From the NCBI GenBank assembly GCA_947176765.1, contig CAMWRX010000004.1, positions 1 to 64,000 on the forward strand: DNA of 64,000 bases. Reading direction: 5' to 3'. The notes below the pieces were generated by a model. That model made no database searches. It worked only from the letters and a program-made list of their open reading frames with translations, and was not told the DNA's origin. Shown here in pieces: positions 37,755 to 60,088 of the stretch; positions within the stretch are counted from its first letter, which is position 1; the number at the start of each line of letters is the position of its first letter. The stretch comes from an uncultured bacterium (GTDB lineage Bacteria; Bacillota; Clostridia; Oscillospirales; Oscillospiraceae). The translations under genes and the position numbers were made by a program.

Positions 37755-37943
37755 ATTGTGTTCCTCCCAAAGAAACCCTTCTGTGGGTGCTTTTTTGCGG
37801 GATGGGAGGTTCCCTTGACAAAAGGGCGTATTATTTTTCAAAAACCGGACTACAGGTCAAACTTTTGACCCGTGGTTCGTTTTGATTTCTCCCACCTGAC
37901 AGTATACTACTTTTGAACTGTTTTGTTTGAGGAGGAATATGCG

Positions 37944-39845
37944 GTGAAAATTACGGGGGAGCAGGATCAAAGCCCGCAGAATGAAACAGAGAGCACAGAA
38001 AAGCGCAATCCAAGTCCTTTAGATGAAAAGGAGAAGATAAGGGCGCGCTATGCGGGAACGGACGGTGTTACGCTCATACCAGCCCGTTTGCAGCCGGGGC
38101 TGTTGGAAGATATGCAGGAGAAGCGTGTGGCCGTATACGCCCGGGTGTCTACAGGCGACCCCAGGCAGACGTCCTCCTATGAGCTCCAGAAAAACCACTA
38201 TCAGGATGTGGTCAATCGTCACCCAGGCTGGAAGCTGGCCGGAATCTATGCGGACGAAGGAATTTCCGGCACATCCCTCCAGCACAGGGATGCCTTTGTG
38301 CGTATGATTGACGACTGTCGCGAGCACAAAATTGACCTTATTTTGACAAAAAGTGTATCCCGGTTTGCACGCAATGTTTTGGACTGTATCGGGTATGCCC
38401 GGGAGCTGGCCGCTTTGGATCCACCCATAGGGATACTGTTCGAGGCCGAGAATATCTACACATTGGATCGGAACAGTGAAATGAGCCTTTCCTTTGTTTC
38501 GACGCTGGCCCAGGAGGAGAGCCACAATAAGAGTGAGGTGATGAACGCCTCCATTGAGATGCGTTTTCGCCGGGGGATATTCCTCACACCGCCTCTGCTG
38601 GGATATGACCGGGATGAGGATGGAGCCCTTGTTGTCAATGAGGAGGAGGCCAAAACAGTCCGGCTTATCTTTTATATGTACTTATATGGATACACCTGCA
38701 CACAGATTGCGGATGCGTTGACCCAGTTGGCCCGCCCGACGAAGAATGGCAGTACCGTATGGTCTGCGGGGAGCGTTCTGGGCATTTTGCAGAACGAACG
38801 TCACTGCGGAGACGTGCTGGCCCGCAAGACCTGGACACCCAGCTACTTGAACCACAGGTCAAGAAAGAACCGCCAGGATCGAAACCAATACTATCAGGGC
38901 AGGCACCATGCCGCAATCATATCTCGGAATGATTTCATCGCAGTCCAACGGTTGATCCGAAATGCGAAATATGGAAACAGAGGGTTTTTACCGGAGCTGG
39001 AGGTAGTATCGCAGGGCGCTTTAAAGGGCTTTGTACTGGTGCATCCCCGCTGGGCAGGGTTTCAAGTGCGGGATTATCTGATGGCCTCGGCCAGTGTGGA
39101 ACCTGCGAATCAGAAAGAGGATCAGAATGAGATTGAAGTGTCGGTTCAGGCTGGGGACTTTGATTATCGGGGGTATGAGGTGGCCAGAGGTCAGTTTTTT
39201 GATGTGGCGCAAAAGCTCTGCGTTACCTTTTCCTCAGACGAACTGTCTTTCAGCACCAGCTGCGTTCGCAAATTGCCGGATAGCCTGTATGTGGAGCTGC
39301 TGATCCATCCATACCGGCGGCTTCTGGCGGTGCGCCCCAGCGTGAAAGGGAACCGGAGAGCAATCCGATGGGCAAAGTCGGTAGACGGCCTTGCCTACAG
39401 CCGAAGTACCAGCGGACGGGCCTTTCTGCCCAGCCTTTTCACAATGCTGGGGTGGGACAAGACCTGCAAGTACCGGGTGCAGGGGATCCGGTATACTATT
39501 GGGACAGGCTCAGTCCTGCTGTTTAATTTAGAGGATACGGAGGTTTTTGTTCCCAAAGACCAATTTCCCGGGGAGAATGATGGGGCCAAATCCCTTGTGC
39601 CGGATTTGGGGGCAAAAGCTGCGGCCTATCCGGCGGACTGGGCGCAGGGTTTTGGAGAAAACTACTACTGCCACCGTGAAATGAGAACGCTGTCTGCCTT
39701 TGGCCTTCAAGACAACTGGGAGTTGCAAGAAGATATCTCAGCTTTTCAAGGCGAAACCTCCATCAGAGCGATAAGCCAGGAGACGCTTCAGACCGAAATT
39801 GCGAAGTTGATTCAAGAAATGAAACAGGAGAATTCAAATGAATGA
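37944..39845 (+). CDS. Large serine recombinase
   Basis: VAVYARVSTGDPRQTSSYELQKNHYQ...GIYADEGISGTSLQHRDAFVRMIDDCREHKIDLILTKSVSRFARN; Recombinase domain LLGYDRDEDGALVVNEEEAKTVRLIF; GTG start after RBS proposed. Confidence 0.93.
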   Translation: MKITGEQDQSPQNETESTEKRNPSPLDEKEKIRARYAGTDGVTLIPARLQPGLLEDMQEKRVAVYARVSTGDPRQTSSYELQKNHYQDVVNRHPGWKLAGIYADEGISGTSLQHRDAFVRMIDDCREHKIDLILTKSVSRFARNVLDCIGYARELAALDPPIGILFEAENIYTLDRNSEMSLSFVSTLAQEESHNKSEVMNASIEMRFRRGIFLTPPLLGYDRDEDGALVVNEEEAKTVRLIFYMYLYGYTCTQIADALTQLARPTKNGSTVWSAGSVLGILQNERHCGDVLARKTWTPSYLNHRSRKNRQDRNQYYQGRHHAAIISRNDFIAVQRLIRNAKYGNRGFLPELEVVSQGALKGFVLVHPRWAGFQVRDYLMASASVEPANQKEDQNEIEVSVQAGDFDYRGYEVARGQFFDVAQKLCVTFSSDELSFSTSCVRKLPDSLYVELLIHPYRRLLAVRPSVKGNRRAIRWAKSVDGLAYSRSTSGRAFLPSLFTMLGWDKTCKYRVQGIRYTIGTGSVLLFNLEDTEVFVPKDQFPGENDGAKSLVPDLGAKAAAYPADWAQGFGENYYCHREMRTLSAFGLQDNWELQEDISAFQGETSIRAISQETLQTEIAKLIQEMKQENSNE

Positions 39846-40560
39846 TCAAAAAGAGACCGCTGGCCTGCCACGTCCCGAAAGGTCGAATACCCCTTTGGAT
39901 GACAAAGAGCTATTCAGCTATCAAGGGTATCAGGTGGTGCGCAGGGAATTTTTGGCCCACGTCCAGGAACCGGCCATCACGTTCAGCCGGTATCAGATTT
40001 CTGTCAACGCCGCCTGCCTCAAAAAGCTACCACAGGTGGATTATGTGCAGGCTTTGGTTAATTCAGATACGAAAAAGTTGGTTCTCCGCCCCTGTGGGGA
40101 GGATGAAAAGGACTCTTTCCCATGGCGCTCCAACAGCAAGTCAGGGCGTCGGCCCAAACGGATCACCTGCCGGGTCTTTTACGCGAAAATTATGGAGCTG
40201 ATGGGCTGGGGAGGAGAGCTGCGGTACAAGCTGTTGGGGAAGCTGATTCGTTCCAATGAGGAGCAGCTCCTGCTGTTTGATTTGACGCAGCCCCAGATTT
40301 TTCAATATGCAGTTGTGGAGCAAGGCATCTGCAAAAGCAGCAAAGCACCAATATTTCCTGCGGAATGGAAGAACCAGTTTGGGCTCTCGGTGGAGGAGCA
40401 TCGCCGCTGCCTACAGATTGACCTGTTCCACGGATATGCGGTATTTGGCGTCCGTGTACCCAAGCCTCCCCTCCCTCATGAACCGCCGGAGGAGGGGCTA
40501 AGCACCGTGGAACAATGGATGACAGCCGAACGAAGGGATGGTGCGGAAGGTGTGCCGTGA
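39838..40560 (+). CDS. Recombinase-associated protein paralogous to recombinase C-terminus
   Basis: FSYQGYQVVRREFLAHV...KLPQVDYVQALV...MGWGGELRYKLLGKLI...LLLFDL aligns with FDYRGYEVARGQFFDVA...KLPDSLYVELLI...LGWDKTCKYRVQGIRY...VLLFNL. Confidence 0.8.
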   Translation: MNDQKETAGLPRPERSNTPLDDKELFSYQGYQVVRREFLAHVQEPAITFSRYQISVNAACLKKLPQVDYVQALVNSDTKKLVLRPCGEDEKDSFPWRSNSKSGRRPKRITCRVFYAKIMELMGWGGELRYKLLGKLIRSNEEQLLLFDLTQPQIFQYAVVEQGICKSSKAPIFPAEWKNQFGLSVEEHRRCLQIDLFHGYAVFGVRVPKPPLPHEPPEEGLSTVEQWMTAERRDGAEGVP

Positions 40561-41491
40561 ATTCTGCCAACAGCTCATTGTGGAGGAAGAATTCCGCAGA
40601 TTGGAGCAGCCTGTGGAGAATGACGTACAGCAGGCCCTCGAGCGGGAATTGCTTGAAAACCGCTGTCAAAACGAGGTCAATCTGTGGGGGCGCATTATCC
40701 TGGAAGGTTTTCTTTGCTATCAGCTTTGCCTGAAACATGAGCTGCCGGTTCGCACCCGACAGATTCCGGTTCGCAACCGGCGGGAGGCATTGACCTGGGC
40801 CTGTGCGGCGCAGCTCAGACGGAGCGACCTGAAACCGGAAATGAGGCTCTATCTGATCGGAAAACGTTATTCGATTGAAAAAGGTGTGCCTGGGCGTCGT
40901 TCATCCCAGCTATCGGACATTGTGGCCCAGTCCCAGCCCGAGGAGGGGGAAAGGTTCGTCCCGGGCAGTACGGCAATCCGCCTGGGTGAAGAATATGGCT
41001 TTGGGCGCTATGCAATTACACGATACGGAGTCTATGCGGAATCGATTGACCAATTGTTCCGAACGGCGCCGCAATTAGCCGCGCTTATTCTGTCAGGCAT
41101 GCTCGAGATGACGCAGAAGGATGTGATCCGCGTATCGCAGCTGCCGGACCAGGTCTTGCGGAAGGCAGAGGAAAATCCTGAGAAGTTTGTGCTTCAGAAT
41201 GGATGGCGAAGGAGAAAACGAGGACGGCCGCCTGCGTATGACGGACAGCGGTCTGCCCCTGAGTTCTCCCAGCAAATGCTGGTCAAGCAAATGCCGAGCT
41301 ATGACCCGGACGCGGAGGTATCTGGGCTGACGCTTACGATCCCATCCTGGATCAGTTCCATTCAGCGAACTCATGCCGCGGCGGAGCTTTCTGCCATCTC
41401 CCCCAGCGCCTTGGAGCGGCTGGCGGCGCAGCTTCTCTGCCTGACGCAAAGTGCGGAACAATTGATGAGCGCCATTAAGGAGGTCTTATAG
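40538..41491 (+). CDS. ParB/HTH-like recombinase-operon protein
   Basis: KPEMRLYLIGKRYSIEK and HTH-like RLGEEYGFGRYAITRYGVYAESIDQLF resemble ParB-associated DNA-binding region; overlaps neighbours. Confidence 0.6.
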   Translation: MVRKVCREFCQQLIVEEEFRRLEQPVENDVQQALERELLENRCQNEVNLWGRIILEGFLCYQLCLKHELPVRTRQIPVRNRREALTWACAAQLRRSDLKPEMRLYLIGKRYSIEKGVPGRRSSQLSDIVAQSQPEEGERFVPGSTAIRLGEEYGFGRYAITRYGVYAESIDQLFRTAPQLAALILSGMLEMTQKDVIRVSQLPDQVLRKAEENPEKFVLQNGWRRRKRGRPPAYDGQRSAPEFSQQMLVKQMPSYDPDAEVSGLTLTIPSWISSIQRTHAAAELSAISPSALERLAAQLLCLTQSAEQLMSAIKEVL

Positions 41492-49374: not shown

Positions 49375-49511
49375 TGGATAGCGCTGGAATGGTGGAGACG
49401 GTTCTGCTTTGAGATATGGATATGGGAAAGTGGATGGGGTGGAGGGGTATTGATTTGGGGAAACTGTGCAAATTTGAGAAGGGTCAATTTGAGAAGCAAA
49501 ACGCCGCAAAC
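49375..49511. repeat. Right copy of imperfect direct repeat flanking about 12 kb
   Basis: Core GCAAATTTGAGAAGGGTCAATTTGAGAAGCAAAACGCCGCAAAC 49468-49511. Confidence 0.75.
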
Positions 49512-49999
49512 TGTAAAACAATTGGTGCATTTTGATTCGTGACTTATGGTATCCTTATGTATAAAATGGCAAAATGCGTTTTCCTGTATTATATTTTACT
49601 GTTGGAAAACTGTAGTTTCACAGGGATAGCATGATACTTGGATAGTTCTTTTTGGCTATTGCATTTTCCAGATATTTCGCTTCAATAGCATATAAACACA
49701 GGGGTTTATCTTGCATATAGGCAAAATATATGCTATAGTATAAAGAAATATAGTTATCCCGTTAAGTCAACTGACCAGATATTTCAACAGTTGGAGTCGG
49801 CCGATCCAATTGTGTGGAGCCAAAAGAATATTGGCTGAAGTGAGCGCAAAACTTGTCCAGATACAGCTGAAGATTCGTTGCATTGCTGCAACCCATTTGT
49901 CAGCCGGTATATATGGCGACTGATGTATTTAGAAGCGATATGTCCGACTTTAAAGAATTTTTTGATGGAATTTTTGTGTAGTATATTTATTTGAGCAAG

Positions 50000-50206
50000 A
50001 TGGTAAAACTATGCCCATTAGTTAGATGAAGCTTTTGGATTTCACTAGTTGAAAGACAGATAACAATGGCACAATTTAGAAGGAGTGCCAGCCTTTCCCC
50101 TCCTACACTGACAAAGCCCAATAAAAATGAGTATGTATCAATAGAGATACTTACTCGTATATGCAGTGTTCTTAACTGTGACATCGGAGATATTAGTAGA
50201 AATTGA
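50000..50206 (+). pseudogene. Degenerate Cro/CI (YozG-like) HTH regulator
   Basis: In-frame reading MVKLCPLVR*SFWISLVERQITMAQFRRSASLSPPTLTKPNKNEYVSIEILTRICSVLNCDIGDISRN*; ending typical of small Cro-like regulators, interrupted by TGA at 50027. Confidence 0.6.
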
Positions 50207-50232
50207 GAAGTAAGTAAATTCGAGGTGTGGAT

Positions 50233-51684
50233 ATGGCATCCCTTATTGATAGCCCTCATATAAAAGAAAAGTGTCAAATATTTACTCCGGCAGATATTGT
50301 AGCACAAATGCTGGACTTAGCGGGCTATGGCGAAAAATTGTTTGGAAAAACTGTTTTGGAAAATTCTTGCGGGAATGGAGAGTTCCTGGTTCAAATTGTT
50401 GAACGCTACATTGAAAGTGCTATACGGGAAGGAGTTTCCCGCAAGGATATACAGAAGGGATTAGAACATGATATTGTTGCCTATGAAATAGATGAGGAAT
50501 TGATTGGCATTTGTAAAGTGCGTTTAGATGCAGTAGCTCTAAAATATGATATGTTGGATGTTGATTGGAATATTTGCTGTGATAATTTTTTGGCTGAAAA
50601 GGTCGCTGGCCAGTATAATTACATAATTGGAAATCCACCATATATTGCATACCCTGACCTGCCAGAGAATGAGCGAAGAGAGATTAGGGCCCTTTTTTCG
50701 ACGTGTAAAAAAGGAAAATTTGACTATAGTTATGCATTTATTGAAAAGTCATTCGAAATGTTAACGGTTGGTGGTAAGCTGGTATATATAATTCCAAGCA
50801 ATATCTTTAAAAATGTTTTCGCAGAAGAACTACGGAAATTGATAAAAAATGACTTGAAAACAGTCATTGATTTTCCGCAGGATCAGATTTTTTCAGGGGT
50901 ATTGGTTTCTCCGGCCATAATTTTGGTGGAAAAGGGGAGCAGTGGGGATAGGTTGATTTACTCTAAAACCATGGGAAAAGAAACAAAAACTGAACTTATT
51001 TCGAAGGAAAGGTTTGAGGGAAAATGGATTTTTGAGACTGTTGACACACTTGGCACACGTTTAGGGGAGTATTTCAAGGTATCAAATTCAATCGCGACGC
51101 TCTGCAATCCGGTTTTTGTTTTAAAGGATGGTTATTTTGATGCAGGTTATTATTGCATTGAAAATGACAGGATAGAAACCGCAATTTTGAGAAAAACAAC
51201 CGGCCCAAAGAGCAAGCGATATAGGAAGGGAAAAGAAGAATATATTATCTTTCCCTATTATTATGATAACGATGGGAATCTTCTTCACTACACCGAAGAA
51301 GAGATGCAAAGACTTTTTCCCTGTGCAATGCAGTATCTTGAAAAGCACAGATCGAAACTTGATAAGCGGAAGTCGGATGAATCTGCTGAATGGTTCGAGT
51401 ATGGCAGATCACAGGCTTTGCGAGACGCAAACCGAAGGATGATTATGGTATCTTCCGTAATTTCGGAAGATACCAAGGCATATTTGCTTGACAAGGGAGA
51501 GCTCCCCTATGCGGGATTATACATTATTCCTACTGGGACAATATCGCTTGAAGATATTTTGAAGGAGTTGAACTCAAGCGCGTTTAAAAAATATATTTCT
51601 CGTGTTGGCGTAAGCGTAAGCGGATCATCTAAGAGAATTACAACAAAAGATATTGAAAACTACGTTTTTACTTCAGCATTTTAA
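50233..51684 (+). CDS. N6-adenine DNA methyltransferase (Eco57I/TaqI-like)
   Basis: VLENSCGNGEFLVQIVERYI and NPPYIAYPDLPENERREIRALF; C-terminal specificity-like region; start 50227 or 50233. Confidence 0.92.
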   Translation: MASLIDSPHIKEKCQIFTPADIVAQMLDLAGYGEKLFGKTVLENSCGNGEFLVQIVERYIESAIREGVSRKDIQKGLEHDIVAYEIDEELIGICKVRLDAVALKYDMLDVDWNICCDNFLAEKVAGQYNYIIGNPPYIAYPDLPENERREIRALFSTCKKGKFDYSYAFIEKSFEMLTVGGKLVYIIPSNIFKNVFAEELRKLIKNDLKTVIDFPQDQIFSGVLVSPAIILVEKGSSGDRLIYSKTMGKETKTELISKERFEGKWIFETVDTLGTRLGEYFKVSNSIATLCNPVFVLKDGYFDAGYYCIENDRIETAILRKTTGPKSKRYRKGKEEYIIFPYYYDNDGNLLHYTEEEMQRLFPCAMQYLEKHRSKLDKRKSDESAEWFEYGRSQALRDANRRMIMVSSVISEDTKAYLLDKGELPYAGLYIIPTGTISLEDILKELNSSAFKKYISRVGVSVSGSSKRITTKDIENYVFTSAF

Positions 51685-51711
51685 TAAGATGTAGGAATTG
51701 GGGACGGTGGC

Positions 51712-54207
51712 ATGGAAAGAATTCAATTTGCCGTTAGCGCGAAAACGGCCAGGCTGATTGGCCGGGAAAATATCTCCGATGTCGATGGCGCTGTTGTTGA
51801 ACTCATAAAAAATTCATATGATGCAGATGCATCATGTGTTTTTGTGTGCTTTGACATTCCCTTTCCGGCGGTACCGCAAGAAATTTCCTTCGAGTTAGCG
51901 GCATCCGTTTTTGATGAAACTGGGCTGGCGCAGCTGTTGAACTATTATGTGAACGATGGAATTTGCTTTGCAAAGAAGAAAAATTTAAGTTCGACTGAAG
52001 AACGGAAGTTAAATGATTATCTTTTTTCATATAATACTATTATTGTAATGGACAATGGCTGTGGTATGAATGAAGATACTCTGCGAACAGCGTGGATGAA
52101 TATAGGTACCAGTGATAAAGAAGAACGAAAGGTAAGCGCTAGGGGAAGGGTAAAGACTGGAGCAAAAGGCATTGGCCGTTTTGCGCTGGATAAGCTTTCT
52201 GCAGCGACTATGGTCTATACAAAAAGTAATGAAGACACCCTAAAAAAATGGCAAATTGATTGGCGGCAATTTGATACGGCGATTATGCTGGACGAAGTAT
52301 CTGCGTCCATTGAAAACTGCGATGGAAGCTATATTAATTTAGCAGAAAAGATTGCCAAAGAAAAGGTCAAAAGTTTTGAACAATATAGCTGGAATACTGG
52401 TACGGTCATTGTTTTAAGTCCGATCCGGGAAAAATGGTCCGCAGAATACTTTTCAAAAATCAACCGTAATTTGAAAAGCCTGTTTCCTAGCACGAACAAT
52501 TCGCAGTTCGATATATATGTGGATAACGTGTTCTATCCTGAATACTCGTTTGAAAATGAACGGTTTTCCATTGATGAAAGTGATTATGATTACAAAATAT
52601 TTGGAAGTTTTGACGGGAAGGATACACTTACAATAAAAATTGATCGCAACGAAATCGACACACGAAAGATAAAGATTTCCGTTAAAGATGGGGAACAGAA
52701 ATATGATTTAATGCTGAATGATTTTTGGTCAAGAGCAGCATTTCAGGTAGATGGACACCGACGGGCCGATTATGCAAAACAATTTACTCTACCATTATCC
52801 ATATCATCGCTGACAAAAATTGACCCTGCAATTATTGCGTCAGTGGGATCTTTTCAAGCAGAGCTATATTTTTTGAAGAATACGAAAAGCACAATTGAAA
52901 TTGTAAGGCCTGTCGTGTCAAGCAGACGTAAAGACATCCTTGCAAACTACTCCGGGATTAAGTTATATAGAGATGGGTTTAAAGTCCGTCCGTATGGCGA
53001 GGAAGGGCCAAGCTTTGATTGGATCGGTTTGGGGGAACGCGCAAGGAAAAATCCGGGGGCAGTTTCCAGCGATGGCCCATGGAGAGTTCAGACAAACCAA
53101 ATTATTGGTGCTGTGAGAATTTCAAAGGATGGGAATCCTGAGCTTGTTGATATGGCAAACCGCGAGGGATTAGCTTTTAATGATGCATACAGAACCTTTG
53201 TTGTAATTATCGAAAAAATTGTTGAAACATTTGAAAGCGATCGACAATATGTTTTTCATGAATATGCATCCTGGTTGAAAGCAAAAAAAGCGGAACGATC
53301 TAAAACGCAGGAATTAATTGAGCATATTGAAAACGAGCAGCGAAAAGCATCGGGAACCCCTAAACAAAGTGAGACTCCTAAGGAAAAAGCTGATCTCTCC
53401 TATTCTCCCGACGAATATAAGGATGCGGTACTTGATCTAAAAAGAGAAAATGAACGAAAAGACAGGGCAATACAAACGATGATGCTGTATAGTTCCGCCG
53501 GTGTCATGACAAATACGTTTTCACATGAGATCAGTCGAATCACTTCAAACGCGGGAAGCCGGATGCAGCATTTACGGTATGCGGTAAAACGTTTGGTTGG
53601 AGAAAATGGGTATACGGGAAATCCGATTTTTGATCCTTTCATTATCATTGATCAGACGGAAGAAGTCGATAAGCTTCTCGAACGCTGGCTTGAGGTAATT
53701 ATGTCTGGCGCGGAACAATCTGCATTTTCGGGGAAAAACACAAATGTATTTAATACAATCCAAAAAATCCTTGACATATGGGAACCACTTTTACAGCAGA
53801 AGCTGATAAATATAAATCCGATTAAAGCGATTGGAAAAATGGAAGATTGTATATGTGCGACATCAGAAATCTCTTTGCATATAATCCTCAATAATTTTTT
53901 ACTAAATTCCGCATGGTTCCTTGAAAAAAGCGTTGTAAAACAGCGCGAGGTAGATGTTACAATTGAGAATAAGTCGGATAAGATTATTATTCTGCTTGAG
54001 AATAACGGGCCTCCGCTTGACGGTATGTTTTCCAATAATCCGGAAAGAATATTTTTTCCGGGGGAATCTTCAAAAAAGACCGAAAAGGGCGAAGGTACCG
54101 GCCTTGGATTGTGGATCACAAAAATTGTTGTTGATGATTCATCTGGCGAAATTCATCCGATGGATAAAGAAGATGGATTTGGCCTTTGGATATCTTTGCC
54201 CAAATAG
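51712..54207 (+). CDS. ATP-binding protein with two GHKL modules (MORC/Hsp90-like + histidine kinase)
   Basis: N-terminal VVELIKNSYDADA, IIVMDNGCGMNEDTLRTAWMNIGTS, TGAKGIGRFALDKLS; C-terminal TNTFSHEISRI, LNNFLLNSAWFLEK, IIILLENNGPPL, GEGTGLGLWITKIVV. Confidence 0.9.
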   Translation: MERIQFAVSAKTARLIGRENISDVDGAVVELIKNSYDADASCVFVCFDIPFPAVPQEISFELAASVFDETGLAQLLNYYVNDGICFAKKKNLSSTEERKLNDYLFSYNTIIVMDNGCGMNEDTLRTAWMNIGTSDKEERKVSARGRVKTGAKGIGRFALDKLSAATMVYTKSNEDTLKKWQIDWRQFDTAIMLDEVSASIENCDGSYINLAEKIAKEKVKSFEQYSWNTGTVIVLSPIREKWSAEYFSKINRNLKSLFPSTNNSQFDIYVDNVFYPEYSFENERFSIDESDYDYKIFGSFDGKDTLTIKIDRNEIDTRKIKISVKDGEQKYDLMLNDFWSRAAFQVDGHRRADYAKQFTLPLSISSLTKIDPAIIASVGSFQAELYFLKNTKSTIEIVRPVVSSRRKDILANYSGIKLYRDGFKVRPYGEEGPSFDWIGLGERARKNPGAVSSDGPWRVQTNQIIGAVRISKDGNPELVDMANREGLAFNDAYRTFVVIIEKIVETFESDRQYVFHEYASWLKAKKAERSKTQELIEHIENEQRKASGTPKQSETPKEKADLSYSPDEYKDAVLDLKRENERKDRAIQTMMLYSSAGVMTNTFSHEISRITSNAGSRMQHLRYAVKRLVGENGYTGNPIFDPFIIIDQTEEVDKLLERWLEVIMSGAEQSAFSGKNTNVFNTIQKILDIWEPLLQQKLININPIKAIGKMEDCICATSEISLHIILNNFLLNSAWFLEKSVVKQREVDVTIENKSDKIIILLENNGPPLDGMFSNNPERIFFPGESSKKTEKGEGTGLGLWITKIVVDDSSGEIHPMDKEDGFGLWISLPK

Positions 54208-54218
54208 GAGGAGCTTTT

Positions 54219-54905
54219 ATGGACAATTACTGCATTGGTATTATTGACGAGGATCAAGGCGAAGTTTTAGATATTAAACGAACGATTCATGCTAATAAGC
54301 CTGCGCATATTGCCGAGGAGCTAATCCAGTTTGTGGATTATCCGCTGCCGACCAGGGTCACTACATTATCTGACGAAGTGTCCAAGGCGGTGATTAGGGA
54401 TATTGTCGGCGGTTCGATTCATGCCCTTATTGTGGATTATCGGATTATTGTCGAATCAACGTGCATTGAGGGAACGGAGATTTTTAAGCAAATATCTTCC
54501 CTTGTTTCCAAATTTCCTACAATTATTTTGACAAATGTTCCGGACGCCTGCTATGACAAGCCGTTTGTTGATGCGGACAAAGTATATGGCAAGCATGATT
54601 TCTTTAAAATAGAAGAGAGTTATTCACAAGAAAAAACGCTTAATATTTTTAGAAATATTGACAATTACAAGAAACAACGTGCATTGCTTTCTGTATCACT
54701 GGCAGAGCAGCTGTTAAAGCTCGAAAGCCAGGGGTATGTTCCAGAAACCTACCAGAAAATTATTGAACTCGAAAATGCGTTAGATGATTACCTTCCGCAA
54801 GAGCAGACAATTGTCGAAAAAGAACTGAATTTATCCGACCTTAAAGGTGCCGTTGAACTAATAGCGGAAGCAAATCAATTGTTGGGTGACAGAGATGAAA
54901 ATTAA
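54219..54905 (+). CDS. Response-regulator-receiver-like protein
   Basis: CIGIIDEDQGE (acidic pair), HALIVDYRI (candidate phospho-Asp), TIILTNVPD, KVYGKHDFF (candidate Lys); C-terminal helical extension. Confidence 0.75.
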   Translation: MDNYCIGIIDEDQGEVLDIKRTIHANKPAHIAEELIQFVDYPLPTRVTTLSDEVSKAVIRDIVGGSIHALIVDYRIIVESTCIEGTEIFKQISSLVSKFPTIILTNVPDACYDKPFVDADKVYGKHDFFKIEESYSQEKTLNIFRNIDNYKKQRALLSVSLAEQLLKLESQGYVPETYQKIIELENALDDYLPQEQTIVEKELNLSDLKGAVELIAEANQLLGDRDEN

Positions 54906-55539
54906 AGATTTTAAAACACATAAAATTACTCGAAGTACACCGCCCTATCAATCAGATTATGCAAGGTATAAGCCGTTTTTAAAAATAGACTTTTGTGGAC
55001 GCTGCGCGTATTGTAACCTGAAAGATATAACTATCACGACGCCTTTTGAAGTTGATCATTTTATTCCAAGAGCTTCTTTTAAAGATGGAAGAATGGATCT
55101 TGATACGGATTACAGAAATTTGATTTATTCTTGCAAGAAATGTAACAATGCGAAACGCAAACAGTTTTCCGGTGATATTCATTCTGCTCATCCAACAAAT
55201 GAACTGTTCTATGACCCTGTTGCAGTGGATTACAACGATATTTATTACAGAAATCATCTTGGGGCGATTGATTCTGATGATGAAAAGGGGAAAAGGACAA
55301 TTACCCGTTTAAAACTTTATCGCCCCATACATATTTTATCATGGCTTTGTGAAGAAATGTATGAAACAGCTGAGCGGCTTGAAAAAGCTGTTAAAACCGA
55401 AGAAGACGAAATTCGGAAACAAACGCTTGAGTCTGCGTTGAATATGTTAAATGCACAATACCGAAAATTTAACCACCTTTTCATAGCGGCCTATAATGAT
55501 AATGGGTTCTCAATTGCGGCCATTGAAGATATGGACTAA
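54895..55539 (+). CDS. HNH endonuclease
   Basis: CGRCAYCNLKDITITTPFEVDHFIPRASF...DYRNLIYSCKKCNNAKR; overlaps receiver gene by 11 nt. Confidence 0.93.
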   Translation: MKIKDFKTHKITRSTPPYQSDYARYKPFLKIDFCGRCAYCNLKDITITTPFEVDHFIPRASFKDGRMDLDTDYRNLIYSCKKCNNAKRKQFSGDIHSAHPTNELFYDPVAVDYNDIYYRNHLGAIDSDDEKGKRTITRLKLYRPIHILSWLCEEMYETAERLEKAVKTEEDEIRKQTLESALNMLNAQYRKFNHLFIAAYNDNGFSIAAIEDMD

Positions 55540-55549
55540 ACCACAAAGA

Positions 55550-55915
55550 TGGGATTGCAGTATTCTCATCACCAATACTCTTGGTTGCCTGCATTGAAAA
55601 TCATGACGGAAATGTATATAAAGCAGGTCTATTAGAACTGGGCCGAAGCCTTGATCCGATTGCTATTAGGAGGAGACAATTTGTGATCATAATTCTTCAG
55701 TCCTGGTTTGACATTGGCAGATGGGAGACATTCGGCTTTCACTGAGCTACTTACTGCATTTTCCGAGGAGTTTCTCAATGCAGTCAATTAGGCAGCGTAC
55801 GTTCTGGAGATGACAGCAAAGCGGATCGGTGTTGCCAAAGTCAAGCTCAAATCTCCCGATGAGCTTCCAGTATAATGATGAGATTGGGTCGTTGTTCGGA
55901 GACACGGGCTTATGA
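55550..55915 (+). pseudogene. Degenerate coding remnants
   Basis: Interrupted frames such as GIAVFSSPILLVACIENHDGNVYKAGLLELGRSLDPIAIRRRQF...* and ELLTAFSEEFLNAVN*AAYVLEMTAKRIGVAKVKLKSPDELPV*. Confidence 0.35.
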
Positions 55916-56572: not shown

Positions 56573-57622
56573 ATGCGGAAATTTGACTATGCAAAGCTGA
56601 AAAATCGTACTTGGGACAGTGAGATACTGGGTTATGTCGCCCAAATCCATGAGTATAAGGGAAAACAGCAGGTGCTTCTAAAGCAGATGCCCATGGAGCT
56701 TGAGCGGTTGGTGGAAATCGCTAAGGTACAGAGTACGGAGGCATCCAACGAGATTGAAGGTATCCGCACAACGAATACCCGCCTGAGGCAGCTCTGTGCG
56801 GACAAGACTGCCCCACGGACGCGGGATGAGCGTGAGATCATGGGCTACCGGGATGTGCTGAACACCATCCATGAGAACTATGAGTACATTCCTCTGCGCT
56901 CCAGCTATATTTTACAGCTCCATCGAGACCTGTACTGCTATTCTGAAAAGGGCATCGGCGGCTGTTTCAAAAATACGCAAAACTATATCAGTGCGACTGA
57001 TACAGCGGGGAATACCTTTGTGCTGTTTACTCCTCTGCCACCCTATGAGACGCCGGAGGCCATTGACATGATCTGTGACAGCTGCAGCCGGGTGATCGAC
57101 ACCCAGGAGGTTGATCCGTTGATCCTGATTCCGATTGTGATCCATGACTTCTTGTGTGTCCACCCGTTCAACGATGGAAACGGCAGAATGAGTCGCCTGC
57201 TGACGACGCTGCTGCTCTATCGCTCCGGGTACCATGTAGGAAAGTATATTTCGCTGGAGAGCAAGATTGCGAAAAATAAAGACCTGTACTATGACGCCTT
57301 AGAGGCCAGTCAAGCCGGTTGGCATGAGAATGCGGACGATCCAACGCCGTTCATCAAATATCTGCTTTCGGTTATCCTGGCCGCTTACCGGGAGCTGGAT
57401 GAGCGGTTGGAGCTAATAGGGGACAAGCCCTCGGCCATTGAGACTGTACGCAGGGCCGTGGAGAGCAGGATTGGCAAGTTCACAAAAACTGACATTATGG
57501 AGCTCTGTCCTACGCTGGGCAAGACCTCGGTGGAGAGTTCCATCAAACAGCTGGTGGATGAGGGCATCCTCATAAAACACGGGAAGGGCCGGGCGACCTT
57601 TTATACCAAAACTTGTTGTTGA
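56573..57622 (+). CDS. Fic-domain protein with N-terminal inhibitory motif and C-terminal wHTH
   Basis: HPFNDGNGRMSRLLTTLLLYR Fic motif; SNEIEG matches (S/T)xxxE(G/N); C-terminal FTKTDIMELCPTLGKTSVESSIKQLVDEGIL. Confidence 0.95.
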   Translation: MRKFDYAKLKNRTWDSEILGYVAQIHEYKGKQQVLLKQMPMELERLVEIAKVQSTEASNEIEGIRTTNTRLRQLCADKTAPRTRDEREIMGYRDVLNTIHENYEYIPLRSSYILQLHRDLYCYSEKGIGGCFKNTQNYISATDTAGNTFVLFTPLPPYETPEAIDMICDSCSRVIDTQEVDPLILIPIVIHDFLCVHPFNDGNGRMSRLLTTLLLYRSGYHVGKYISLESKIAKNKDLYYDALEASQAGWHENADDPTPFIKYLLSVILAAYRELDERLELIGDKPSAIETVRRAVESRIGKFTKTDIMELCPTLGKTSVESSIKQLVDEGILIKHGKGRATFYTKTCC

Positions 57623-57645
57623 TTGGGACGGAACCTGTTATAATA

Positions 57646-58722
57646 ATGGAGAGAAATTTTGCACAGTCTGAAAGGGCAAAGTTTATGGATGAACTGATGA
57701 AAAGGGAAAACTCGTTGAGCGACCCGCAGCCGGAGGACGCCTATCGGTCTATCCGGGGCTATGTGATCGAGGCGCAGCGTCAGGTCTATACGGCGGTCAA
57801 CGCCGCAATGGTGACCGCTTACTGGAAGATCGGCAAGTCGATTTTTGAGGCCTGCGGGGAAAATGACAGGGCGGCTTATGGCAAGCAGGTATTACAATAT
57901 ATCTCTGATAGAATGACAGCGGAGTTTGGGAAAGGGTTCGATGAAAGCAATCTGCGCAACATGAGGCGATTCTATCTTGCGTTCCCAATTCAGGACGCAC
58001 TGCGTCCCGAATTGAGCTGGACGCATTACCGCTATCTGATGAAGGTCAGTGATACCGAAGCAAGAACGTTCTACATGGAGGAGGCCGTAAAAGCTGGATG
58101 GAGTTCGCGTCAATTGGCCCGGCAGATCAACACCATGTATTACCAGCGAATCCTGGCCAGCCGGGACACGGAGAGCGTTGCGGCGGAAATTCAGACCACT
58201 GAGCCGAAGCCGGAGTACGAACGAATCATCAAAGACCCTTACGTGTTGGAGTTCCTTGACCTTCCGGCAAATGAGCATTTTTATGAATCTACGCTTGAGC
58301 AGGCGCTGATCGGCCACTTGCAGAAATTCCTGCTGGAGCTGGGCCGTGGATTTTCCTTTGTGGCGAGACAGAAGCATTTTAACGTGGATGGACGGCACTT
58401 TTATATCGATCTCGTGTTTTACAACTATATTTTGAAATGTTTTGTGTTGATCGACTTGAAAACAGGCGACCTCACGCACCAGGACATCGGGCAGATGCAG
58501 ATGTATGTGAATTACTTTACCCGGTATATGATGAACGAGGGGGACAACCCGCCGGTGGGCCTGCTTTTGTGTGCACAAAAGAGCGATACGCTGGTGCGGC
58601 TGACCTTGCCGGAGGACAACCGGCAGATCTACGCCGCAAAGTATATGCCGTACCTGCCCACGGAGGAGGAGCTGAAGCGGGAGCTGAAGCTGGAGGAGTT
58701 TGAACGGCTGGAGGATGTGTAG
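57646..58722 (+). CDS. DUF1016 / PDDEXK nuclease-like (YhcG) protein
   Basis: GRGFSFVARQKHFNVDGRHFYIDLVFYNYILKCFVLIDLKTGDLTHQDIGQMQMYVNYF. Confidence 0.92.
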   Translation: MERNFAQSERAKFMDELMKRENSLSDPQPEDAYRSIRGYVIEAQRQVYTAVNAAMVTAYWKIGKSIFEACGENDRAAYGKQVLQYISDRMTAEFGKGFDESNLRNMRRFYLAFPIQDALRPELSWTHYRYLMKVSDTEARTFYMEEAVKAGWSSRQLARQINTMYYQRILASRDTESVAAEIQTTEPKPEYERIIKDPYVLEFLDLPANEHFYESTLEQALIGHLQKFLLELGRGFSFVARQKHFNVDGRHFYIDLVFYNYILKCFVLIDLKTGDLTHQDIGQMQMYVNYFTRYMMNEGDNPPVGLLLCAQKSDTLVRLTLPEDNRQIYAAKYMPYLPTEEELKRELKLEEFERLEDV

Positions 58723-58795
58723 CGGAAGGCCGGCGGGCGCGAACAAAAAAGCCGCAAACCAAGGGGAGGATCTGCCGGCAGATCCTCCCCCAATT

Positions 58796-60088
58796 TTATA
58801 GTAATTCGTTTGTTTTTCGTGCCAGGTACAGCGGCAGATTCGTGACCGCGCCGTCCTTGCGGTAACCCCGCTTGGAGAAGCGCAGGGCATATTGGGGTTG
58901 ATTTTGTGCGACGTACCGCTTAAAGGATGGGGCAGACTTATCCTCACCGCCCTTGGCTTCCACAGGGACGATCTCCGTTCCGTATTGCAGCACAAAGTCG
59001 ATTTCACCATTTTTGTCCGAGAAATAGCGCGGCTCTACCTGAAACTGCCCCCGGAGCTGCTGGAGGACAAAGTTTTCCGTCAGCGGCCCCTTGAATTGGT
59101 AATCGCTTTTCAGTAGGATGGCGCTGTTGTCGATGCCGGCCATGTGCTTGAGCAGGCCGGTATCGAAGACGAAAAGCTTGAACTGATCCAGCTTATCGAA
59201 GGCAGCCAAGGGGTGCTCCATTTTGGAGACATTATAGACCCGGTTCAGCATCCCGGCGGAGACCAGCCACTCAATGGCTTCCTCAAAATCCCGGGCGCGG
59301 GCGCCGTCCCGGACGGCACCGTACATAAATTTCTCGTTGGCTTTGGCCAGCTGGGATACGATGCTGCGGAACACCATCAGGATGCGCCCGCTGTTGACCT
59401 TGCCGTTGTGCTTTGAGAAGTCGTTTTCATAGATCTGGATCAACTCATCCTGGATTTGGTTGACCTTGGCGGGGTCTTTGTGCTTGAGCCAGGATGCCAC
59501 GCACTCCGGCATCCCGCCGATGATGAGATAATTGCTATACGCTTCCAGAAGCCGGAGGTGGAAGATATCCTCGATGGGCTGTTCCTTCTGAATTGTGGTG
59601 TAGTAGGCGAACAGGGCAGGGTCTGTGGCCTCCAGGAACTCATCGAAGGTCAGCGGCGTGACATCCAGCAGATTGACCATGCCCACCGGGTAGGATTTGG
59701 GCTGGGCCAGCAGGGTTCCCAGCAGACTGCCTGCCGCGATGACGTGGTACTCATTGGCTTTCTCCTTGAAATATTTCAAGGCGTTCAGCGCCGCCGGGCA
59801 CTCCTGGATTTCGTCAAAAATAATGAGCGTTTCCCCAGGGAGAATTTTCTCCCCAGCGATCAGAGACAGCAGTTCGATGATCCGCCGGGGATTTTTGTTT
59901 ACCTCGAAGATGGATTTCAGCTCGTCCTCCTCGTCGAAGTTGAAGTAGACCGTGTGCTGATAGCAGTTTTGTCCGAACTCCTTCATCAGCCAGGTCTTGC
60001 CCACCTGCCGTGCACCCTTCAGTACCATGGGCTTGCGGTCCTCGCTGGATTTCCAACGGATCAGGGACTCCAATGCGTTGCGCTTCAT
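58796..60088 (-). CDS. AAA ATPase with DUF4143 domain
   Basis: VLKGARQVGKTWLMKEFGQNCYQHTVYFNFDEED, TLIIFDEIQECPAALNALKYFKE, C-terminal FVLQQLRGQFQVEPRYFSDKNGEIDFVLQYGTEIVPVEAKGG. Confidence 0.94.
   Translation of the reverse strand: MKRNALESLIRWKSSEDRKPMVLKGARQVGKTWLMKEFGQNCYQHTVYFNFDEEDELKSIFEVNKNPRRIIELLSLIAGEKILPGETLIIFDEIQECPAALNALKYFKEKANEYHVIAAGSLLGTLLAQPKSYPVGMVNLLDVTPLTFDEFLEATDPALFAYYTTIQKEQPIEDIFHLRLLEAYSNYLIIGGMPECVASWLKHKDPAKVNQIQDELIQIYENDFSKHNGKVNSGRILMVFRSIVSQLAKANEKFMYGAVRDGARARDFEEAIEWLVSAGMLNRVYNVSKMEHPLAAFDKLDQFKLFVFDTGLLKHMAGIDNSAILLKSDYQFKGPLTENFVLQQLRGQFQVEPRYFSDKNGEIDFVLQYGTEIVPVEAKGGEDKSAPSFKRYVAQNQPQYALRFSKRGYRKDGAVTNLPLYLARKTNELL

Follow-up and report, generated by a model that had tools for sequence, protein, structure and literature searches.

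The window, as we call the whole stretch of 64,000 nucleotides that was analysed, carries four open reading frames on the plus strand. They encode, in order, an N6-adenine DNA methyltransferase (MTase) of the Eco57I/TaqI type (50233..51684), a MORC-like GHKL ATPase fused to a soluble histidine kinase (51712..54207), a stand-alone receiver (54219..54905) and a PtuB-like HNH nuclease with a Cys-zinc knuckle (54895..55539). Inspection of the reading frames confirmed the positions and spacing given in an earlier note on this DNA: a 27-nt gap follows the MTase, an 11-nt gap follows the GHKL gene, and the HNH gene (ATG 54895) overlaps the end of the receiver gene by 11 nt. The MTase starts at ATG 50233, with a GTG two codons upstream, and an AGGAGG lies within the 11-nt gap ahead of the receiver ATG at 54219. 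The note had also described AT-rich DNA within a GC-rich genome, and the composition of the window agrees: the operon has approximately 40% GC, and the GC fraction is 0.37-0.42 over 49-56 kb, rises to 0.50-0.54 directly beyond that span and reaches about 0.62 at greater distance. The AT-rich island that contains the operon (49400..55900, no strand assigned) is presumably horizontally acquired, judging from its composition and from the finding of the system in a single genome among 398 that were sampled in the phylum. A comparison with relatives for a clean empty site was uninformative, their flanks not being syntenic.

A frame-broken remnant of a small HTH regulator (...NEYVSIEILTRICSVLNCDIGDISRN*), recognised from its sequence, lies just upstream of the MTase (50066..50206, plus strand). 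A conserved upstream HTH regulator was considered and rejected, since a motif scan of the relatives found no counterpart upstream of related loci and the degraded copy is present in the window only. Downstream of the operon, a small ArsC-like reading frame precedes a segment (56573-60088) that encodes a SoFic-like Fic protein, a DUF1016/YhcG nuclease and an AAA_14/DUF4143 ATPase, each with a PADLOC match; this segment is possibly a defence or mobile island. About 10 kb upstream of the operon, a reading frame at 37923-39845 resembles by eye a large serine recombinase and is accompanied by more reading frames at 39838-41491, a region that is possibly an integrative element.

The gene identities proposed in the note were upheld by Pfam for three of the genes and by fold and profile comparison for the receiver. 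In the kinase protein, Pfam recognised HATPase_c_3 at residues 108-194 (52 bits) and HATPase_c at residues 719-829 (46 bits). Residues from about 1 to 520 form a MORC-like ATPase with its transducer, residues 491-595 a helical linker, the following DHp domain contains H605-E606, and residues 700-831 form the catalytic ATP-binding domain. Both ATP sites are intact across the family alignment. In the MORC-like site, E30, N34 and D37 are present in 80 of 81 sequences and GAKGIGRF in 81 of 81, and D114 is also conserved. The N-box and G-box residues are kept in 81/81, the DHp histidine H605 likewise in 81/81, and H605, N728, N732, GTGLG and GAKGIGRF taken together in 80-81 of 81. When the AlphaFold2 model (pLDDT 83) was compared with the PDB by Foldseek, the top matches were human MORC2 with DNA (9cdj) and MORC3, followed by HK853, ZraS and ThkA; the MORC2 and MORC3 matches span a mixed alignment, with TM to target of 0.42-0.56. 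The N-terminal half of the model resembles DNA-bound MORC2 and the C-terminal half HK853 and ThkA, the latter in agreement with a profile search. The protein thus joins a MORC-like ATPase to a histidine kinase, for which the receiver is the cognate partner. It has both the intact GHKL ATPase and the MORC-like build of the MORC/paraMORC architecture, and its sensor half is this ATPase rather than a small-molecule sensor. Its similarity to restriction enzymes of the BbrUII/HgiDII type (58 bits, against a family cut-off of 550) is confined to the N-terminal GHKL ATPase region, the rest of the protein being unmatched. When the whole order was searched with the single protein, the kinase had no other match over its full length; many weaker matches cover the C-terminal kinase part alone.

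The receiver has no match in Pfam and, for the window protein, none in PADLOC. The profile of its family matches the PhoP receiver (1mvo, 4e-5), and its AlphaFold2 model (pLDDT 91.8) is a (beta-alpha)5 fold to which helices are appended. Foldseek places the receivers of RcsB, AtBRR and PhyR among its PDB neighbours. The REC domain occupies residues 1-130, with D10, E11, D73, T105 and K125 in place, and is followed by a helical C-terminal domain. D73 is conserved in 80 of 80 sequences, K125 in 79 of 80 and T105 in 77 of 80 (the alignment counts were made in TTG numbering, +11). No output domain, DNA-binding domains included, was recognised in the AlphaFold2 model. PADLOC matches of a few receivers pointed to PDC-M60B and LeoB, identities that were rejected since the kinase matches gave them no backing.

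The MTase matches Eco57I (8e-21, 75 bits) and TaqI_C (0.009) in Pfam and MTase_II in PADLOC (199 bits). Its C-terminal target-recognition region is TaqI-like, and its NPPY motif is kept in 70-75 of 76 aligned sequences. The HNH protein matches Pfam HNH (2e-9, 38 bits). Its motif residues are C37, H55, N75, C80 and N84, and H55, N84, C37 and C80 are invariant in the family alignment.

The earlier note had named co-occurrence of kinase, receiver and HNH genes in other genomes as a check on its claim. When contigs of GTDB genomes were scanned once with the alignment of the kinase, 80 loci resulted, selected by the kinase alone, of which 72 were testable in having at least 1.6 kb of contig beyond the kinase; the other three genes were located by profiles iterated on the open reading frames of the 80 loci. 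Both the receiver and the HNH gene were found at 72 of 72 testable loci and the N6-MTase at 70. The 80 loci are the closest relatives only, and these figures therefore describe this kinase family, not all MORC-kinases. A reverse scan of viral contigs with the HNH alignment alone agrees. It gave 25 matches, and the eight with E<=1e-10 were all on contigs found independently by the kinase. The matches that lack the kinase (L215-L231) are weaker (mostly 20-40 bits, 86 bits for L215 and 98 bits for L216) and mostly generic HNH proteins. No HNH was found in annotated phages, and in a scan of viral contigs the receiver proved too variable to search with. Wherever it could be computed, dN/dS in close pairs was mostly 0.03-0.23; the four-gene set is under purifying selection. 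A set that recurs in 70-72 of 72 testable loci with so low a dN/dS is not due to chance, and a chance neighbourhood, or an operon of unrelated genes, is rejected by the 72/72 co-occurrence. These results indicate that the gene set is a real, conserved system. At one locus that is otherwise complete, the HNH gene is split over two frames (L060:10169-10787), through decay or an assembly error.

Two gene orders were observed among 72 complete four-gene loci, which overlap with the 72 testable loci but are not the same set. The MTase comes first in 27, as in the window and in gut Firmicutes, and last in 45, from Bacteroidota, Pseudomonadota and others. All complete loci keep their genes on a single strand, with the kinase ahead of the receiver and the receiver ahead of the HNH gene, and the median gaps are +1 and -1 nt; receiver and HNH were separate genes in the loci examined. 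Relatives on Bacteroides and Salipiger plasmids are annotated "sensor histidine kinase - hypothetical - HNH endonuclease - N-6 DNA methylase", and a Deinococcus locus reads Eco57I MTase, kinase, hypothetical, HNH. Partial distance correlations, which rest on non-independent pairs, were largest within each layout between DHp and REC (0.56 and 0.30 in the two layouts), and largest overall between REC and the HNH tail (0.35), among the inter-protein links examined.

The layout bears on the reading that MTase and HNH are an ordinary type II restriction-modification (R-M) pair, for which the kinase and receiver would just tune expression or dosage. The two genes adjoin when the MTase is downstream, and in the MTase-upstream group the target-recognition region is as conserved as the catalytic part, which fits a co-evolving R-M pair. 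However, the strong full-length HNH matches on viral contigs all adjoin the kinase and receiver, while the MTase can be lost. Moreover, a receiver without a DNA-binding output domain makes transcriptional control unlikely, and a MORC-like ATPase is not the small-molecule type of sensor. We consider this reading improbable.

The MTase is the most freely exchanged member of the set. At two loci (L048 and L052) the operon lacks an adjoining MTase, nor was a close copy found in the rest of the genome; in a third (L050) the MTase is frameshifted, which may be an assembly error. The HNH gene is intact in all three. It is therefore unlikely that the nuclease acts constitutively on unmethylated DNA, and, as far as these genomes tell, a constitutive restriction enzyme could hardly be kept without a working MTase, with the proviso that MTase-less loci are few (two among the 72 testable). 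Both MTase-less copies (L048:5515-6922 and L052:5163-6980) lie downstream of genes that by eye resemble spoVA-type sporulation genes, and L048 has two extra reading frames of 208 and 257 aa ahead of the kinase.

The closest solved relatives of the HNH protein are PtuB proteins (PDB profile, PtuB 8ee7, 7e-5). In Septu EcB88, PtuAB cuts tRNA-Tyr, and defence needs the H-N-H motif of PtuB (PMC13096335). For this reason an RNA target is a serious rival. The phosphorelay would then gate an HNH nuclease that, like PtuB of Septu and retron Ec78, cleaves tRNA or some other target in the host and so arrests the cell, in the manner of abortive infection. The MTase, which has been swapped more readily than its three partners and is missing in two loci, would tune the DNA signal or be loosely attached. 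The HNH protein scores low against PtuB (PADLOC 66 bits, below the cut-off; NCBIfam 32 bits, where the cut-off is 150), and the presence of the MTase in 70 of 72 loci points to DNA. We judge abortive infection unlikely, with a better chance than the ordinary R-M pair.

A sister group carries a different effector. In four loci, an MBL-fold metallohydrolase gene (L120:9725-10762, L155:9724-10725, L157:5731-6738 and L170:9731-10753) replaces HNH beside an N6-MTase, a MORC-histidine kinase and a receiver of 227 aa, and these systems form one clade in the kinase tree. Taken with the receiver that has no DNA-binding domain and with the covariation between REC and the HNH tail, this swap points to direct control of an exchangeable effector. 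The swap, together with the MTase-less loci in which HNH is intact, suggests an effector gated by a phosphorelay rather than constitutive restriction. Seven viral contigs (L149:2513-8392, L158:2506-8397, L162:2933-8824, L167:1316-7213, L174, L175 and L186) carry an N6-MTase and a MORC-kinase with a receiver-like protein of 360-410 aa and a downstream protein of 240-260 aa. No significant Pfam domain was found in the three or four downstream proteins scanned, which are possibly a further effector family. In a conjugative plasmid of Campylobacter coli (pCCDM224L, L118:5818-10271), a MORC-kinase and response regulator lie beside a C5-MTase, and the kinase match recurs on 41 Campylobacter plasmid records (kinase alone, neighbourhoods aside).

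Copies of the system were found on plasmids and viral contigs, and in Bacillota, Bacteroidota, Pseudomonadota, Spirochaetota, Verrucomicrobiota, Kiritimatiellota, Thermodesulfobacteriota and Deinococcota, as well as in one archaeon, Methanolobus. A distant blastn with the Enterobacter locus as query found no copies in E. coli. The kinase tree (FastTree, midpoint root, with long branches outside the HNH class) indicates cross-phylum transfers, such as Bacteroides and Treponema copies within a Firmicutes clade; several of the records are metagenome-assembled genomes, whose assemblies may conceal errors. Immediate neighbours, counted without a matched control, include a type I S subunit, DpnII, ResIII, relaxase, TniQ, integrases and resolvases. 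It has also to be asked whether the phosphorelay serves DNA repair or chromosome maintenance, with the MORC-kinase sensing lesions or topology and HNH doing the processing. GHKL/MORC and MutL proteins do work in DNA transactions, and Vsr repair genes adjoin the related HEF_HK pair (PMC8011034). However, the very patchy distribution, the carriage on plasmids and viral contigs, the horizontal spread and the effector swapping are typical of defence and not of housekeeping repair, which makes this the least probable of the readings considered.

The reading that we prefer, with a probability of roughly 0.6, is a four-gene, modification-linked immune system in which a phosphorelay controls the nuclease. 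Eukaryotic MORC ATPases are ATP-dependent dimers that act on DNA. By analogy of fold, the MORC-like half would probably dimerise on DNA and clamp it, and would read the state of that DNA, either a missing cognate N6-methyl mark or a structure of phage replication. This would drive the fused kinase to phosphorylate its own H605, from which the phosphate would pass to D73 of the stand-alone receiver. The phosphorylated receiver would license the HNH nuclease through its helical tail, and self DNA would be marked by the MTase. The signature residues of every catalytic step are intact, those of phosphotransfer in kinase and receiver included. Phosphotransfer, the direction in which regulation runs, the signal, what the nuclease cuts and an activity against phages are our inferences; the sequence does not set the sign of regulation, and the phosphorylated receiver could activate or inhibit. 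A more far-reaching form of this proposal, to which we give a little less than an even chance, is a class of restriction in prokaryotic immunity that is built from modules and gated by a phosphorelay. A DNA clamp of the MORC type, covalently wired to a histidine kinase, would turn DNA state, not a small molecule, into a phosphoryl signal; by way of a stand-alone receiver, this signal would directly license a nuclease that can be exchanged (HNH or MBL-fold).

The earlier note had called the set a candidate undescribed defence system. No PADLOC, NCBIfam or Pfam model of the four-gene system was found; in PADLOC the kinase family has weak matches alone, all to the GHKL domain held in common (window protein, 24 bits). 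No publication that gives the set a name was found in the open literature and the minority of preprints that the search covered. Neither of the two outcomes that the note had set as refuting its claim, a match to a catalogued system or a failure of the genes to co-occur, was observed. The set is thus uncatalogued; "undescribed" is too strong in view of two earlier studies (PMC8011034, PMC2292703), and "defence" is our interpretation. Bellieny-Rabelo et al. (2021) described in silico TCS-like kinases with HATPase_c_3, HEF_HK and HATPase_c, whose genes adjoin those of Response_reg_2 proteins. The R-M genes nearby were mostly those of C5-MTases and Vsr, and the neighbours listed included HNH variants; the authors proposed regulation of R-M and named no four-gene system (PMC8011034). 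Common to that pair and the present one are a soluble kinase with an N-terminal HATPase_c_3, a DHp domain with a conserved His-Glu/Asp and a C-terminal HATPase_c, an adjoining divergent receiver without another known domain, and R-M genes nearby. However, no match to HEF_HK (PF19191) was found in four members of the kinase family (E up to 1), nor to Response_reg_2 (PF19192) in five members of the receiver family (E up to 10); a distant relative (L119) has a match to PF19191 below the cut-off (0.0039). The receiver here has 228 aa, whereas the query of that study had 600 aa, and the MTase here is an N6 enzyme of the Eco57I type with an obligatory HNH fourth gene and no Vsr, in contrast to the C5-MTases that predominate there. 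Going by domain content and gene neighbourhood, we place the system as a variant of this R-M-linked MORC-kinase/receiver kind, of which the 2021 pair is the closest precedent. The kind has so far been predicted in silico, and no experimental test of it was found in the literature.

Other known systems share parts of the set. Iyer, Abhiman and Aravind (2008) reported GHKL proteins of the paraMORC1 type in R-M operons, sometimes with HNH endonucleases (PMC2292703). The present system has the same MORC-type ATPase in R-M-like operons with, as in some of theirs, an HNH gene; here, however, a histidine kinase core is part of the same protein as the ATPase, and a receiver accompanies it, whereas the passages of that paper on these proteins mention no kinase fusion and its text does not contain the word "receiver" (PMC2292703). 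The DefensePredictor study (2026) presents defence systems that are predicted and unvalidated, and HATPase and REC domains are named there in the legend of Fig. 6F, which does not give the host system or the presence of MORC, HNH or MTase (PMC13092281). Septu and the PtuAB of retron Ec78 have a related PtuB-like HNH effector; here, by contrast, the operon has no PtuA-like ATPase gene, the kinase and receiver stand in the regulator's place, and an MTase is added. Detocs, the defensive two-component system, is, per its name, likewise a multi-gene defence by two-component signalling, of three genes instead of four. In Detocs the effector is fused to the receiver and the sensor is a TPR protein, whereas the system here has a MORC-like sensor, a stand-alone receiver, an HNH effector and an MTase. 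The best-described Detocs effector is a PNP that degrades ATP (PMC11249213). No PADLOC match to Dtc proteins was obtained, in so far as that PADLOC release contains Detocs models. With classical type II R-M the system shares a DNA MTase and a nuclease gene. The full gene sets of BREX, MADS and DISARM are absent, and generic MTase-domain matches below the equivalog cut-offs are all that was found of them.

Eukaryotic relatives of MORC act in chromatin silencing. If the proposal is true, restriction would here be under the control of signal transduction, with a MORC ATPase as the sensor of DNA state. The effector slot is swappable, as the exchange of HNH and MBL-fold proteins shows. The operon offers a compact, clonable four-gene example for both the paraMORC predictions of 2008 and the TCS-like predictions of 2021, in which point mutants can be defined for each step.
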